Virus record (IMG/VR): IMGVR_UViG_3300046516_001361
Coordinates: 1-40,144 of that record
Source: a virus
DNA length: 40,144 bases
Direction: 5' to 3' (one strand)
Shown piece by piece: positions 3,108 through 38,434 of the stretch. The first letter of the stretch is position 1. Every line of letters starts with the position of its first letter. The notes under the pieces were generated by a model. It ran no database searches. It was given only the letters and a program-made list of their open reading frames with translations, and was not told where the DNA came from. The translations under genes and the position numbers were made by a program.

Positions 3108-3670
3108 CGCTTCACCCTCTTCTGCTGAGCCAAACCGTTTACCAAAGCACTCGTGGGCTTGGCACCGAACCTCTCGGTGATCTCCGCTTCGACCGTTTGC
3201 AAAACGCTCTTCTGGTTAATTGACGGATAAGATGTCGGATCGGGTGTCACTGTGTCACCCCGCTCGGTCGCATTTGTCACCCCGCTGCGACTGTGTGTCA
3301 CCCCGTTACCCTTACGAGGTGTCACTGTGTCACCCCGTAAAACGATGTTGTAGTTCTGGGGGCGCTTATCGGTTCTAGCGATATGAGCAGCGGGAATGAT
3401 CCGGCTTCCGGGCTCAATGACACCGAGGTCGAGCAAGCGTTTCAAGGCGCGCTGAACAGATCGCTCAGACAGGCGGGAGTTGCGTGCAATTCGGGCAACA
3501 GATGGGAAGGCGTTGCAACCGTCAACACCAGCGTAGTAAGCCAAACACATGAGCACGAGCTGACAGCTCGGATCGGTGACACGCTCTTGATGTTCGATAG
3601 CCCACGAATAGGCTTGTATGCTCAAGACACCCCCAGACTCACGGGTGCTTGATTGGCGAATGCCTCTCAT
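3104..3670 (-). CDS. Replication initiator-like protein with winged-helix HTH
   Basis: 188 residues from ATG 3670, which lacks a ribosome site. A TTG at 3625 preceded by GGGGG gives MSIQAYSWAIEHQ, the usual start of HTH_36/phage O-type replication proteins, and may be the true start. Residues 53-85 (NAFPSVARIARNSRLSERSVQRALKRLLDLGVI) form a winged helix-turn-helix. The rest is a linker encoding four copies of a CACCCCG-type DNA repeat, then a C-terminal helix. The layout resembles lambda O, where iterons lie inside the initiator gene. Probable role: origin binding and helicase recruitment. Confidence 0.8.
   Translation of the reverse strand: MRGIRQSSTRESGGVLSIQAYSWAIEHQERVTDPSCQLVLMCLAYYAGVDGCNAFPSVARIARNSRLSERSVQRALKRLLDLGVIEPGSRIIPAAHIARTDKRPQNYNIVLRGDTVTPRKGNGVTHSRSGVTNATERGDTVTPDPTSYPSINQKSVLQTVEAEITERFGAKPTSALVNGLAQQKRVKR
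3243..3337. other. Iteron array, probable replication origin inside the initiator gene
   Basis: Four copies of TGTCACCCCG lie at 3253-3262, 3275-3284, 3296-3305 and 3328-3337. Start-to-start spacings are 22, 21 and 32 bases, close to two, two and three helical turns, so all sites face the same side of the DNA. The first and last copies sit in a 20-base identical repeat, GGTGTCACTGTGTCACCCCG, at 3243-3262 and 3318-3337. Repeats of this kind inside an O-like gene mark the origin in lambdoid phages. Binding by the 3104-3670 product is inferred. Confidence 0.7.
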
Positions 3671-3709
3671 GTCAGAATCAACCCGCGTTCATAGCTGTGC
3701 GCAGTTTCT

Positions 3710-3724
3710 CACTTTTCATAAGTG
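3710..3724. promoter_or_regulatory. Operator-like palindrome upstream of the initiator gene
   Basis: CACTTTTCATAAGTG has 5-base inverted arms (CACTT/AAGTG) around TTCAT. It lies about 40 bases upstream of the initiator ATG in a 100-base gap without coding capacity. It could bind a dimeric regulator; no matching site was found in the 6278-6378 control region. Confidence 0.35.
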
Positions 3725-3731
3725 AACCTCA

Positions 3732-9021: not shown

Positions 9022-9414
9022 ATGTGCATGGTAGATGACTGCGAACCGAACCGGTGCTCGACCGAGGTATCCCGGCGAGCTCGCAAAGATCACATCTGCA
9101 ATGAGTGCCATCGCACCATCAAAGCAGGCGAGGTCTATCGCTACTTCAGCGGGATCGATTACGACCGCTGTGCCTTCTCGCACAAGATCTGCGGTCATTG
9201 CGGCGTGGTCTGCGACTGGCTGGCTATCAACTGCAATGGATACGTGTTGCACGGTGTCTATGAGGACATTACGGAGCACGTTGAGACGTACAACCGGTTC
9301 GACCTTGCGCGCCTGCAGGTGGGCATGAAACGCGACTGGGCCGCGATTCGTAAGCCCGGCCTGATGCCTCTGCCGAAGGTCCCGAGTCGAATCCAACTAG
9401 GAGACGCTCGATGA
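9022..9414 (+). CDS. Zinc-binding hypothetical protein
   Basis: 130 residues from ATG 9022 with GGAG upstream. Cys pairs at CNECHRTI, the segment AGEVYRYFSGIDYDRCAFSHKICGHC and VCDW suggest two zinc knuckles in the first 75 residues; the pattern resembles phage proteins with RARKDHICNECHRTIKAGE, a treble-clef-like motif. The C-terminal 45 residues are basic and helical. Its stop overlaps the next gene. Confidence 0.7.
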   Translation: MCMVDDCEPNRCSTEVSRRARKDHICNECHRTIKAGEVYRYFSGIDYDRCAFSHKICGHCGVVCDWLAINCNGYVLHGVYEDITEHVETYNRFDLARLQVGMKRDWAAIRKPGLMPLPKVPSRIQLGDAR

Positions 9415-9671
9415 GCACGCTCCTGGCCGAGAAGCGTGCCCTACCTCCAATGGGCGGTCTTGCAATCATGGCCGCCGAGTTGGCTGGGAAGCGTTGCCCC
9501 AGTGGTGTCTTTTGGAGCCCCTTTGGTGGGATGACGACGGTGGCGGGACAATTCAACCCCAGCACGCGCGAGGCATGCGCCAGGCACGAACAGACCAAAG
9601 GTTCGCTGCCTCTCACTTCCAGCGAGTACTACCGCATCATCGATCGAATCGCGCGAGGCCAAAGGCCATGA
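9411..9671 (+). CDS. Hypothetical protein
   Basis: 86 residues, MSTLLAEKRALPPMGG start in an ATGA overlap. The middle FWSPFGGMTTVAGQFNPSTREAC is unusual, and the end SSEYYRIIDRIARGQRP is a basic helix. No family recognised. The dense overlaps with both neighbours support translation. Confidence 0.6.
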   Translation: MSTLLAEKRALPPMGGLAIMAAELAGKRCPSGVFWSPFGGMTTVAGQFNPSTREACARHEQTKGSLPLTSSEYYRIIDRIARGQRP

Positions 9672-9979
9672 CCACAGGAACAGAGCCAACGCTCACCACT
9701 GATCCGAAGGCCGGTTTGCCGGATCGTGTCTGGGTCGGTCGAGACGCGATTGGTGGCCTGATGATCTACTGGAAGATGCCAGATCACAGGCAAGCGGTCG
9801 AGTTCATGCGCGTGCTCTCGCGGCAGGAAGTAGACAAGCTCGCCAATGATCGAGAAGGCGTAGATGCCGGGCAATGGATCAACTCGTTGCTGCGGACCAT
9901 CGAAGGGCAGCGCCGGCACATCGCGAGACTTGAGAATCCGTCCGCGCATGTCGCAGCGGGAGTAACTGGTCATGACTGA
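9668..9979 (+). CDS. Hypothetical protein
   Basis: 103 residues from ATG 9668 (MTTGTEPTLTTDPKAG), coupled to the previous gene (ATGA) with GAGG upstream. The segment PDRVWVGRDAIGGLMIYWKMPD looks like a beta hairpin, and the rest is helical (AVEFMRVLSRQEVDKLAND, then a coiled-coil-like INSLLRTIEGQRRHIARLEN). No family recognised. Confidence 0.6.
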   Translation: MTTGTEPTLTTDPKAGLPDRVWVGRDAIGGLMIYWKMPDHRQAVEFMRVLSRQEVDKLANDREGVDAGQWINSLLRTIEGQRRHIARLENPSAHVAAGVTGHD

Positions 9980-24922: not shown

Positions 24923-25272
24923 CGGGGCACGAAGGTAACGGTCGGGGGCCCAACCGAATAGGTGATCACCAGCGAATCCCCCTTGGCCAGCGGGAACATG
25001 CCTGCCGTGAGTCCGGTCACGTAGAAATTGCCATCCCCACGCGTGAACTGAATCTGGGTCGTCGTCCCCCCTTGGACGATCAGAGAGCCGCCCTGAGTGG
25101 CCAGGTAGGTGTAGGGGGAGGGTCCGGCAATCAGCGCCGCTACCGGCCCCGTAGGCTGTCCGCCCCCGAGTCCTGCCCAGAAGGTGTACCAGCCGCGGGT
25201 CGTCACCTTGCCATCCCGGCTGGTGAGGGGCTGCTCGTAGGTTGGCGCAGTATTGTAAAAATTGGTGCCCAT
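24919..25272 (-). CDS. Small conserved structural protein near the tail accessory factors
   Basis: 117 residues. TSRDGKVTTRGWYTFWAGLGGG, then PSPYTYLATQGGSLIVQGGTTTQIQFTRGDG is a beta-rich pattern found in small proteins that follow gp10-like genes in P22-type phages. It shares a base with the gp10-like stop and precedes the sulfotransferase-like gene. Probably a minor virion component. Confidence 0.7.
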   Translation of the reverse strand: MGTNFYNTAPTYEQPLTSRDGKVTTRGWYTFWAGLGGGQPTGPVAALIAGPSPYTYLATQGGSLIVQGGTTTQIQFTRGDGNFYVTGLTAGMFPLAKGDSLVITYSVGPPTVTFVPR

Positions 25273-27044
25273 CAGGATCCTTGGGAATCTTCAGCTTCGC
25301 CGAACAGTGTCGCACCGATGATGTCCCGATTGGTCGGATCTGAGAAATTCACCTCCCACACCCGATCCCGGGCCTCACCACATTGGTAGACAATCGCCCG
25401 GTTGCGGGTATCGCCCACGAGACCGATCGGCACATCAACCTCGGTTCCATAGCTGAATCCCCCATCGTCACTCCAGCGGATCATGGCCTTGGGGTTCACG
25501 CCCTGTCCGCTCTGCAGTCCCACTCCCGGGGTGAATTCCACCTGCATGGAGGCTTGGAAGATGCGCTTACGGTTTTCCCGACTCCACACATGCGGAGCCC
25601 GGCGCTGAGCTCGCAGCGGGGCGCCGTTGTCCGTATAAATGGTTCGACTCTGCTGATGGATCTGGCCCGTCTGGTAATCCCCCCACAGTCGCAGATTGGC
25701 GAAGTTCACAAAGCAATTGCCAATGTGTCGGTGATAGGTGCCGGTAGATGCATTCCAGGAGAGGCGTTGCCACCATGCATCCGGGCTTCTCAAGGTCTCG
25801 GACGTCGTCACATCAAACACCCAGGTCGTGTCCGCGGTCGGAAAGGTGAGCACGTACATGACGTGACCTAATTCCTCATAACAATCCCCGATAGCATCGG
25901 AGACTTGCGGATAGGAGCTGATAGCAAATTCGATGGCGTGATTGCTGATGCGCTCGACGCTGTATTGATTGGTCATCACAACGATGTTCTGGCCCTGCTC
26001 GTTCTGCGCAAGCCAGGCCAGATTCTGGCCCACGCGGCAGATCGAGTGTTTAGCACTGCAGCCCATCTGAGGGCCGATGCCGGGCAGACGCGAAAAGGGA
26101 AAATTGGCGCCTCCTGCGTTGTACCAGACTTCACTCGTGCGCTCGCCGATCAACCAGATTTCGCGGTTATTCTCGAACAGCGTGATGAGGTTATCGGTAC
26201 TGCTGTCCTTCAATGCGTAAAAGAGGCCGGCGAACGTGAGCGTGTAAGGGACCGGAGCATTGGTGTAGAACGTGCGCGTACCGGGTTGGTTGAAGATCAG
26301 CCAACCCTCTATAAAGGCGATCCGGTCGGCTCCCAGGAAGGCGGGATCGGTGATCCTTCCAAAGGCCGGAATGTTGAGTGTGAAAGTATCGGCTGTCTGA
26401 TTAGACGCTGCAGTCGAGCTGATCGTGACCGTGTTGGCTGTGAAGCTGATGGCCGTGATGAAGCCGGCGACAATCGCACCTGCGCTATCTGTAATGATCG
26501 CATCATCAGCGACAATCAGGTAGTTGGGAACCAACACACCTACGGGAAAGCTGATGACATTGCTGCCCAGCGTGAGATTGCCCGGAAAGGTGACGTTCTT
26601 CGCTGTACCCGATAGCTGGTAAAAATAGCCGTATTGGCCATCCACCAACACAGCATAGCCACCCAATCCGTTGAACAAAACGCCATTGTCGCGAATCACC
26701 ACGCGACCGTTGTTGGTCTGCAGCGTTCCGACCTGCAGTACTGAGAATTGCGCGATACTGGTCTGCGTAGCCGGAGTGGTGACGGTCGCTACATAGGCGG
26801 CATTCGACACCACGAAGAGGCACTGCGTATTGCCCGGCAGTACCCAGGCTCCCCGAACAGGCCCGGTCACGAACGTATTGATGACCGGCGCAAGCCCCGG
26901 CGCTCCTAAGAGCGCAAAGGGCATCTTGGCCTTTGGGTTTTTGTCAGCTTCTAGAAACCAATTGATGCAGGACTGCGCATCCTGCAACAACATACTCGCA
27001 GTGTATGTTGGGCCGCACAATCCCAGATCTGCCCCCTCAAACAT
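25272..27044 (-). CDS. Tail accessory factor / packaged DNA stabilisation protein, P22 gp10-like
   Basis: 590 residues. LCGPTYTASMLLQDAQSCINWFLEADKN, then KMPFALLGAPGL is the conserved N-terminus of gp10-type proteins. The rest is beta-rich with the propeller-like repeats of this family (QVGTLQTNNGRVVIRDNGVLFNG). gp10 closes the portal together with gp4 and holds the packaged DNA. The start has no ribosome site; the stop of the upstream homing endonuclease overlaps it by eight bases, so translation may depend on coupling. Confidence 0.78.
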   Translation of the reverse strand: MFEGADLGLCGPTYTASMLLQDAQSCINWFLEADKNPKAKMPFALLGAPGLAPVINTFVTGPVRGAWVLPGNTQCLFVVSNAAYVATVTTPATQTSIAQFSVLQVGTLQTNNGRVVIRDNGVLFNGLGGYAVLVDGQYGYFYQLSGTAKNVTFPGNLTLGSNVISFPVGVLVPNYLIVADDAIITDSAGAIVAGFITAISFTANTVTISSTAASNQTADTFTLNIPAFGRITDPAFLGADRIAFIEGWLIFNQPGTRTFYTNAPVPYTLTFAGLFYALKDSSTDNLITLFENNREIWLIGERTSEVWYNAGGANFPFSRLPGIGPQMGCSAKHSICRVGQNLAWLAQNEQGQNIVVMTNQYSVERISNHAIEFAISSYPQVSDAIGDCYEELGHVMYVLTFPTADTTWVFDVTTSETLRSPDAWWQRLSWNASTGTYHRHIGNCFVNFANLRLWGDYQTGQIHQQSRTIYTDNGAPLRAQRRAPHVWSRENRKRIFQASMQVEFTPGVGLQSGQGVNPKAMIRWSDDGGFSYGTEVDVPIGLVGDTRNRAIVYQCGEARDRVWEVNFSDPTNRDIIGATLFGEAEDSQGS

Positions 27045-30763: not shown

Positions 30764-32122
30764 TTAGCCTGCGGCCCGGATGCCCAACTCACGATACAAG
30801 CTCGCCGGTCCAAACAGCACGTCACACCGTGTCGGCTCACTGTCGTTGTTGATGGTGTATTGCGACACGCAGCGGATGCTCATTCCCACATCCTCGTCGT
30901 CGTATGCCCGAGCGGCAAACTCCACGCCTCGAGGCAACGGCAGATCTGCGAACGCGAGCGCGTAGGCGTACTTGTGGAAAATCAGCCCTTGGGGTGAGAA
31001 CTGGTTGGCATTGCCCGTGCCACCGTTGACCGTGATGACCGCGGACGCGGCGGGAGCTGCGGTGACGTTCTGGAACTGCCCACCTGAGATGATCGCCCCA
31101 CCGATGACCAGCGTGAGCAGTCCGCCCGCATCCGATGTGTACACACCTGTGGCTGGATTGAACGTGCCATTAGCCAGTGTCGCAGCCGCGAACGGAATGA
31201 GCGACGGCGCGGTTCCCGGGGTTGGGACCTGGAAGCCGCCCGGCGGCAGCACCACGAACTGACGCAGCGTGCGACCGTACTGCAGCCGACTCTGCGGATT
31301 GACGGGCAATACGCCTGCGATCTGGATCACATCTCCGACCGTGATGACACCCGTGCTCGCCGTCCAGCCCTTGGTCTGGAAGGTGCCGGACTGCACCCAG
31401 CCATCCGTCAGCAGGGCGGTACCGGCAGGAACCGTCGCAACCAAGGGCGCGCCACCCTGAGCTCCCGTGGTAAAGGCCGCGACATTCTGATCCTCCCACC
31501 AGTCCAGGCCCGCTGTCTTCTTGGCGACCAGGCCCTCTTCGTAGATGTCGCTAATGGTCGCCTGCGGATTGAACAGACCCTTCAGGGAATCGGCAATTGC
31601 CGACATGGTGGTGGGATCGAGCACGCAGTTCTTGACGCCTTCTTTCGGACACGCCTCTTGCACCAGAGTCGCGCGACCGTCACTGAACTGCTTGTAGCTC
31701 GTGGGCTGAACACCGGGAGTACCCAGCATGGCAGCCGTCGAATAGAAGAAATACTGCGCAGAATAGCTGTCGATCAGGTTGGCAACCGTCGCCACCTGGG
31801 GACGCAGGATGCGCTGCTTGAACAGGTCCATGGACAGCGCCAGGTCCTGGGTCGTGAACTGCACGTCCACGTGGTACTGATAGTTCAGGGAGACCGGAAC
31901 ACTCGACTCGAACGTGTTCTCCACGTTCAGCGGGCTTCCGAAGCTGCCCTTGTACCGGGGCGGGCGACGGATATTGCAGGTAGCGCCGATCTTGGCACCC
32001 GTCTGGGCGAATTCGTCCGAGTACTGCCGCTCTACGCGGTTGGCGATGACCAGTTCATTTTCGAGTACGACGAGCGCTTCATTGGTGATGTAGCTCATCG
32101 TCAACAGAGTTTGTGCGACCAC
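30764..32122 (-). CDS. Major coat protein, P22 gp5-like
   Basis: 452 residues from a GTG at 32122 with a strong AGGAG site (GTCAGGAGACATTCC). The N-terminus ITNEALVVLENELVIANRVERQYSDEFAQTGAKIGATCNIRRPPRYKG, then DVQFTTQDLALSMDLFKQRILRPQVATVANLIDSYSAQYFF is the P22-type coat (HK97 fold) signature. A beta-rich inserted region lies at about 200-360 and the C-terminus NNDSEPTRCDVLFGPASLYRELGIRAAG closes the fold. It forms the icosahedral head. A hairpin in its leader covers the ribosome site. Confidence 0.88.
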   Translation of the reverse strand: MVAQTLLTMSYITNEALVVLENELVIANRVERQYSDEFAQTGAKIGATCNIRRPPRYKGSFGSPLNVENTFESSVPVSLNYQYHVDVQFTTQDLALSMDLFKQRILRPQVATVANLIDSYSAQYFFYSTAAMLGTPGVQPTSYKQFSDGRATLVQEACPKEGVKNCVLDPTTMSAIADSLKGLFNPQATISDIYEEGLVAKKTAGLDWWEDQNVAAFTTGAQGGAPLVATVPAGTALLTDGWVQSGTFQTKGWTASTGVITVGDVIQIAGVLPVNPQSRLQYGRTLRQFVVLPPGGFQVPTPGTAPSLIPFAAATLANGTFNPATGVYTSDAGGLLTLVIGGAIISGGQFQNVTAAPAASAVITVNGGTGNANQFSPQGLIFHKYAYALAFADLPLPRGVEFAARAYDDEDVGMSIRCVSQYTINNDSEPTRCDVLFGPASLYRELGIRAAG

Positions 32123-37454: not shown

Positions 37455-37668
37455 TGCGTGATCCTGACGCTTTAGACTCGGTCTCGATCACATACCCTGT
37501 ACAGCACAACAGCATGTCATCGGCATTGACGTCATAGCGCTCGGTGAAGTTGAACACCGTGCAGCTTTTGGCCTTCAACAATCGGCCCAGAATCATTTGG
37601 TTGTGCGGAACATTTGCCCCGACCAATTGGCAATACCACAACTCTTTGACCTTAACCGCTTCAGTCAT
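37420..37668 (-). CDS. Small hypothetical protein
   Basis: 82 residues from ATG 37668 (MTEAVKVKELWYCQLVGANVPHN), in an ATGA overlap with the GroES-like stop. KVKELWYCQLVGANVPHNQMILGRLLKAKSCTVFNFTERYDVNADDMLLCC reads as alpha/beta. Its C-terminal end overlaps the small terminase gene by 35 bases. Function unknown. Confidence 0.6.
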   Translation of the reverse strand: MTEAVKVKELWYCQLVGANVPHNQMILGRLLKAKSCTVFNFTERYDVNADDMLLCCTGYVIETESKASGSRNVQPESITPSR

Positions 37669-38111
37669 GCCGTCTTCTTGGCTGCATCTTCGTCGATCAG
37701 GCACACATCGCGTTCGGTGCAGATGAAGACGTCCGAAGTGCCCCAGCGGATCAGCGGGAACAGATACCCCCCGATATCCAGTCCGCCGACATCCACGATA
37801 TCGCCTACTTTCACATCACAGGGCAGGAAGTGCTTGGAGAGCTTTTGGGTCTTGCGATCGCCCCGCTTGGTGGTGCGATTGCCTTGGCTGTCGAAATATT
37901 TCCACGGATGTCTTCCGGGGCCGACGGCTCTGACAATGCCTCTGACGGGCTTGCCGCGGTAGATCACGTCCAGGCAGGTATTCAGGTCCAGGGGAAGAGG
38001 TTCGATGACGATCTGGTCGCGCAAGGGACGGATGTGCTCGTCGGCTCTCACCCAGGCGAGGAGTTCGTTGCCTTGACGGGAGCCTAAGCCGGTATCCATA
38101 CCATCGCTCAT
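37665..38111 (-). CDS. GroES-like cochaperonin (Cpn10)
   Basis: 148 residues. IRPLRDQIVIEPLPL (27-41), RGIVRAVGPGRHP (57-69), CDVKVGDIVDVGG (98-110) and RDVCLIDED (134-142) are the strands of the GroES barrel in the right order. A short mobile-loop segment (LDLNTCLDVIYRGK, 41-54) ends in a hydrophobic patch that could dock on GroEL. A 25-residue insertion (70-98) is extra compared with GroES. T4 gp31 and similar phage proteins replace GroES for coat folding, so this probably helps the large coat protein fold. Its start overlaps the Tat-coat gene. Confidence 0.85.
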   Translation of the reverse strand: MSDGMDTGLGSRQGNELLAWVRADEHIRPLRDQIVIEPLPLDLNTCLDVIYRGKPVRGIVRAVGPGRHPWKYFDSQGNRTTKRGDRKTQKLSKHFLPCDVKVGDIVDVGGLDIGGYLFPLIRWGTSDVFICTERDVCLIDEDAAKKTA

Positions 38112-38434
38112 GAGGTGATTCCTGCATAGCGCGGCGGACGGCGAATATTGATCATGGTTCCACGCTGGTCAGGTGACCACTGAGATCCCTCAATGAAAGC
38201 ATCGCTATAGAATCGGTTGATAGCGGACGCGAACGCCAGTTCTTTGTGCAGGATTGCAAGAGCTTCCTGCGTGATCATGTTCATGGTCCACAATCGATTG
38301 CCGCCCCATCCTACGGCGGGCGGCAGAAAATATGTGCGGCTCGGCGTCCATAGTTCCAGTTCTGGCAGCGCAATCGCCGCAGCAACACCTGCTGCAGCCC
38401 CGCCCAGCGCTCTGAAGAAGCCTCGGCGATCCAT
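38108..38434 (-). CDS. Truncated coat-like protein with twin-arginine signal
   Basis: 108 residues. Residues 1-24 (MDRRGFFRALGG, then a hydrophobic Ala/Val run) look like a twin-arginine translocation signal. Residues 53-105 align with residues 11-59 of the coat: ITQEALAILHKELAFASAINRFYSDAF, then INIRRPPRYAG against ITNEALVVLENELVIANRV...YSDEF...NIRRPPRYKG. The rest of the coat fold is absent. It could be a decoy, an assembly partner or an exported moron, or a leftover of recombination. Overlaps with both neighbours show it is translated as a normal operon gene. Confidence 0.8.
   Translation of the reverse strand: MDRRGFFRALGGAAAGVAAAIALPELELWTPSRTYFLPPAVGWGGNRLWTMNMITQEALAILHKELAFASAINRFYSDAFIEGSQWSPDQRGTMINIRRPPRYAGITS

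Follow-up and report, generated by a model that had tools for sequence, protein, structure and literature searches.

Why would a phage that encodes a complete coat protein also carry a small gene in which the start of a coat follows a putative export signal? This question is raised by a 40,144-nt IMG/VR virus record, analysed here over its whole length (the window). An earlier note on this DNA had described, at 38108-38434 and beside a GroES-like gene, a Tat-signal protein bearing only the N-terminus of the phage's own coat. The open reading frame is indeed present on the minus strand and encodes 108 residues. The features concerned are the following.

38108..38434, minus strand: whole gene for the Tat-signal and coat-N-arm protein, 108 aa; ATG at 38434, stop at 38108
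38363..38434, minus strand: predicted Tat signal, residues 1-24, MDRRGFFRALGGAAAGVAAAIALP; TIGR01409, RRxFL being the family consensus
38297..38362, minus strand: family linker, residues 25-46, ELELWTPSRTYFLPPAVGWGGN, pattern PE..LW.P....FLPP..GWG, common to L042, L065, L046, L118, L177a and L200
38120..38293, minus strand: coat N-arm-like segment, residues 48-105, resembling coat residues 6-59
37665..38111, minus strand: weakly GroES-like protein, 148 aa, downstream, with a 4-nt overlap with the Tat gene; same layout in L179
38434..38664, minus strand: upstream gene, 76 aa, with a start/stop overlap TGATG with the Tat gene
30764..32122, minus strand: full-length coat, 452 aa, P22/Sf6-type HK97 fold (PF11651 3e-32; phrog_283 3e-60)
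31946..32107, minus strand: part of the coat gene resembled by the small protein (coat residues 6-59, by alignment)

A predicted Tat signal in front of a coat-like segment

The gene lies within a tight run of small genes on the minus strand, upstream of the genes for the GroES-like protein, a DUF5681 protein, the large terminase subunit (terL), portal, scaffold and coat. Its start shares 1 nt with the upstream 76-aa gene (TGATG) and its end 4 nt with the GroES-like gene (ATGA), as expected of a translated gene. The third-position GC content (GC3) of this gene and of its 76-aa neighbour is 0.57, compared with 0.71-0.76 in the core genes. Adjacency to the downstream gene is thus confirmed and even amounts to an overlap, but the GroES identity of that neighbour is weak, as NF001530 matches with an E-value of 0.0013 and 18.6 bits against an NCBIfam cut-off of 136. 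The weakly GroES-like protein is conserved upstream of the terminase in about 20 related records. It does not constitute the general setting of the Tat gene: L179 has a Tat gene in exactly the same place, with a C-terminal coat piece as its tail, but no Tat gene adjoins the closest GroES-like relative (L086, 67%), and the genes of other members are located between terL and portal. The association with the GroES-like gene was thus rejected as a general key to the Tat gene.

The reading of residues 1-24 as a twin-arginine-type signal stood up to examination. The window protein carries the motif DRRGFFR, which fits the twin-arginine pattern (S/T)RRxFLK, and residues 9-24 contain no charge, as in the hydrophobic region of such signals. 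NCBIfam model TIGR01409 is narrowly passed, at 17.0 bits for a cut-off of 16.7. Tat export of the protein is therefore predicted from its motif.

The coat similarity claimed for residues 53-105 (coat 11-59) extends slightly further. BLASTP aligns residues 48-105 with residues 6-59 of the phage's own coat, with 27/58 identical positions (47%) and an E-value of 7e-14. Smith-Waterman comparison places the pair far above shuffled sequences (z = 22, p 3e-13), while none of the 47 other window genes compared with the Tat protein does better than p 1e-2. A coat profile built here from the coats of relatives matches the tail at 1e-15, the best of about 1700 shuffled or reversed tails giving 0.007; phrog_283 run against the whole window protein gives only 0.034. 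The tail thus aligns end to end with residues 6-59 of a P22/Sf6-type coat (PF11651, phrog_283), a part in which the coat model has its first helix (residues 9-23) and a strand (48-52). In contrast, the other ~390 residues, and with them the whole HK97 shell fold, are absent, and a Tat signal is added in front; the rest of the coat is missing, as had been proposed. The AlphaFold model of the full-length coat has a pTM of 0.78 and is matched by Foldseek to the Sf6/P22 coat (E 2e-20). The model of the small protein has a pLDDT of 52 and no confident fold, with helices at 3-11 and 51-65, and thus speaks neither for nor against a folded mimic.

A truncated or frameshifted coat was considered and rejected, since the relatives are separate small genes in phages that have full coats elsewhere. 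No full-length coat was seen behind the signal in any of these relatives, and the tail of L177a, which matches the coat with p 1e-14, stops at about the same coat position as that of the window protein. Separately, the coat gene itself seems interrupted in L072, L073, L074 and L081 (after residue ~34) and in L079 (~49), where a separate short N-terminal frame is followed by the remainder, the span being 1616 nt in L072/L073 instead of ~1356 nt. This is possibly an intron or another insertion.

A family built on a common signal and linker

The first relatives were reached through coat homologues: L042, L046 and L065 carry Tat genes between terL and portal. They share with the window protein the linker TxFLPPxxGWG but have a different tail, whose start resembles the coat C-terminus (E 3e-8 for L042 against its own coat). 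Pattern scans of viral contigs then yielded about 80 distinct relatives, laid out as (S/T/N)RRxFL, a hydrophobic stretch and either PE..LW.P....FLPP or DPERxLWxPG. L398 (MDRRAFLKAIG...DPELALWVPGRKTFFLP...) bridges the linker type of the window (PELELWTPSRTYFLPP) and the common DPERLLWVPG type. Because retrieval relied on fixed linker motifs, the family is at least this large and the composition of the sample is biased; several patterns were used, of which FFLPPxxGW misses the window's own YFLPPxxGWG. The relatives are metagenomic records. Some phages encode several Tat proteins, three in L252 and two in L199. What had appeared as a small mimic peculiar to one phage and to the coat N-terminus is thus a large family, in which the coat pieces vary between members. 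A 13-residue identical match in L001-L003 was discarded as an unrelated protein with a similar Tat start, and a search of bacterial genomes with the pattern FFLPPxGGW found no member of the Tat module.

The signal is a consistent property of the family. Among DPE(R/L)-type relatives, 42/58 have no charged residue between RR and the linker, and the positions after RR fit the Tat consensus, with F at +2 in 46/58 and L at +3 in 48/58. An AxA-like cleavage motif occurs inconsistently (41/58). The DPER linker pattern itself contains no RR, and 54/62 distinct frames retrieved by this pattern alone have RRx(F/L/M/V) upstream. The family shares with known Tat substrates (TIGR01409, PF10518) the (S/T/N)RRxFL motif and the hydrophobic stretch, but it is phage-encoded, lacks a cofactor or enzyme domain, and has a body made of virion protein pieces. 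The Rieske protein is a membrane-anchored Tat substrate, and its PetC anchor (PF25471) is weakly matched by relatives. We are highly confident of this anatomy, as read from the sequences: a Tat signal, then a tryptophan/proline linker and a tail, both short. In one subfamily of the Tat module (L115, L188, L247 and L261), the members have in common a tail that is not from coat, EELAAGRVTYDxxTxxMxxWER.

Pfam, PHROGs and NCBIfam returned no family that covers the entire protein, and among the named phages of INPHARED only coats were matched, or nothing relevant. A literature search found no description of phage Tat proteins with coat pieces, which is weak evidence as most subscription journals lay outside its coverage. 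The family is widespread and apparently undescribed.

The Tat gene is present in 3/32 close relatives having terL, portal and coat. The C-type tails of L065 and L046 differ with dN 0.36 and dS 1.54 and so appear to be under purifying selection. The pair L247/L261 gives a dN/dS of about 0.55 from few changes, and no close N-type pair for such a comparison occurred among the members found. The gene is accessory, though probably not junk.

Coat pieces in the tails

P22-type coat profiles match 25/80 tails at E<0.01 and 32/80 at E<0.1, while shuffled tails run against the same profiles gave 0/8000 and 5/8000, respectively. When compared with the coat of their own phage, 26 of the 49 tails for which it was retrieved score z>4, as against 12/665 (~2%) of the other small frames of the same phages. 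Five of these controls exceed z>6; two are Tat proteins missed by the filter (L334, L343), and the others include L297:3-311, cut by a contig end, and L236:9062-9385, which overlaps a Tat gene. Detection works best where the coat is conserved, and about half of the tails show no coat similarity. These comparisons show that, by similarity, the tail consists of one or more coat pieces in about a third to half of the members, nearer on average to the coat of their own phage than to coats drawn at random from the group. Convergence towards a short helix and hairpin, or plain chance, would suit some single matches that are short and weak (L046, L199a, L206). It is refuted for the stronger members by the p-values of the window protein and of L177a and by the clean shuffles, and we regard it as extremely improbable for the family.

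The pieces match the coat in its true reading frame (23/49 matches) and hardly ever in the five wrong frames (1/245); z-values come from 60 shuffles, whose slight run-to-run variation accounts for 23 instead of 26 of 49. Capture of DNA in any frame was thus not seen. The pieces come from all over the coat: the N-arm (window, L177a, L306, L201, L363, L312, L333, L341, L331), the spine-helix region (L332, L357), the middle (L346), the GDVxTIxGV..NPxTG..QQFVV region (L309, L335, L345, L305) and the C-terminus (L252c, L179, L319, L354, L042). No single interface is therefore mimicked. C-terminal pieces stand ahead of N-terminal ones in L343 (by reading) and L364 (by profile).

The phage's own coat outscores permuted ones (mean z 6.1 vs 2.6; 0/20000 permutations), yet it ranks first for only 5/49 tails, so the tails follow the coat lineage loosely. 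The window's own coat ranks 9 of 43, several other coats matching the window tail at least as well. The tails of the window protein and L177a score 84 with each other, but 118 and 130, respectively, with the coat; this suggests several independent derivations, and a single ancient fusion is not favoured, as tails are nearer to coats than to each other and different coat regions are used.

Two further, unrelated coat families are also sampled. L198 carries a piece of a phrog_9953 coat (65% over 34 aa, 9e-12), preceded by a short segment resembling coat 328-339 (at an E-value of only 0.4). The tail of L192 combines the end of a gpT-like coat (profile 9e-5) with a stretch of terminase (2.5e-5) and a short segment resembling portal (shuffle p 1e-4, but only 0.05 by profile). 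In L252b, a likeness to portal judged by eye is not significant (0.03).

Several related observations were made on the way. In L236, a Tat protein (9382-9855) has portal-, coat- and terminase-like pieces, and the small gene that overlaps it (9062-9385) also matches a coat stretch (z 12). The tail of L200 matches the family of a 590-aa window protein (25272-27044) at 1e-5 in a profile control, so tails may have non-coat sources. In L012, a 74-aa frame devoid of Tat signal (3504-3728), two genes past the GroES-like gene, ends in TVNVRRPPRY; it is coat-like by eye but weak (profile 1e-3), as is a 103-aa frame of L179 (no match). Lastly, L399 and L400 are miniature coat-like proteins with no evident Tat signal; in the former, a single 240-aa frame combines N-arm-like with C-terminal segments, and the latter resembles coat 14-130.

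Proposed mimicry or possible fragment capture

The proposal of a small exported or membrane-linked coat mimic with no known role is partly supported by the sequences, export being predicted. In the best explanation that we can offer for the whole, which we hold tentatively, the host Tat system would deliver the protein to or through the inner membrane and the tail would bind a partner that normally meets the corresponding part of the coat. The binding step, derived from the coat similarity and the preference for the own coat lineage, is a guess that we rate as tentative at best. The partner would probably be either a host sensor of head proteins or a head protein of the phage, and the Tat-linked tail would retain it at the membrane or transport it out of the cytoplasm. 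That a bound partner is exported is speculation: according to PMC4273604, Tat can export bound partners, as in the hitchhiking of PaoABC, where the subunit with the Tat signal takes signal-less partners out, but the natural cases are host enzymes. The head proteins sampled by the tails, i.e. coat, portal and terminase, are known triggers of the sensors CapRel/Lit and Avs (PMC11087589). Taken together with Tat hitchhiking, this makes a sensor trap conceivable, in which short, sometimes shuffled pieces of the phage's own head proteins, coat for the most part and occasionally portal and terminase, would bind host immune sensors and either retain these at the membrane or clear them from the cytoplasm. 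We consider this specific form decidedly unlikely. A periplasmic tail would moreover miss cytoplasmic sensors or coat unless they were bound before export, which speaks against mimicry in general, as do the scattered coat origin of the pieces, the tails that show no coat similarity and the rank of the window's own coat. We know of no anti-defence protein that is an exported coat piece.

The head-protein preference could also stem from gene neighbourhood, which makes fragment capture a serious rival, albeit a somewhat unlikely one. Illegitimate recombination in the head-gene region would place coat fragments behind a mobile Tat-signal start, and these would persist owing to harmless export, with no mimicry of the coat. 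This would account for pieces from any part of the coat, some of them misordered (L198, L343, L364), for portal and terminase bits, for the accessory status of the gene, for its lower GC3 and for the dN/dS of L247/L261. It leaves unexplained why coat pieces are so closely tied to a Tat signal (about half vs 2%), and the exclusive use of the true coat frame, the failure to find near-identical recent copies, the apparent purifying selection on C-type tails and the similar end point of the window and L177a tails all argue against it. Two further functions were weighed. A head-assembly factor, in the form of a membrane-bound coat piece drawing coat or procapsids to the inner membrane or adjusting assembly, would agree with the position of the genes among terL, portal and coat, with start/stop overlaps, and with the repeated use of the N-arm unit. 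It is nevertheless unlikely, because Tat export or an N-in/C-out anchor would place the tail across the inner membrane from the cytoplasmic coat; most relatives lack the gene, and the pieces do not come from one interface. The pieces might instead poison capsid assembly of superinfecting relatives, competing phages or satellites, consistent with their resemblance to coats of the same wide group and not strictly to the own coat; this we judge very unlikely, as the phage's own coat would also be affected and export would take the pieces away from the assembly site.

The family brings host Tat export together with pieces of phage head proteins, two things that are not known to meet. Tails that work as mimics would tell us which regions of coat, portal and terminase are recognised by something in the cell, and they would add a new kind of anti-defence or assembly factor. 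Captured fragments, in turn, would reveal a frequent route of phage gene birth. In both cases the family is a common one among environmental phages.
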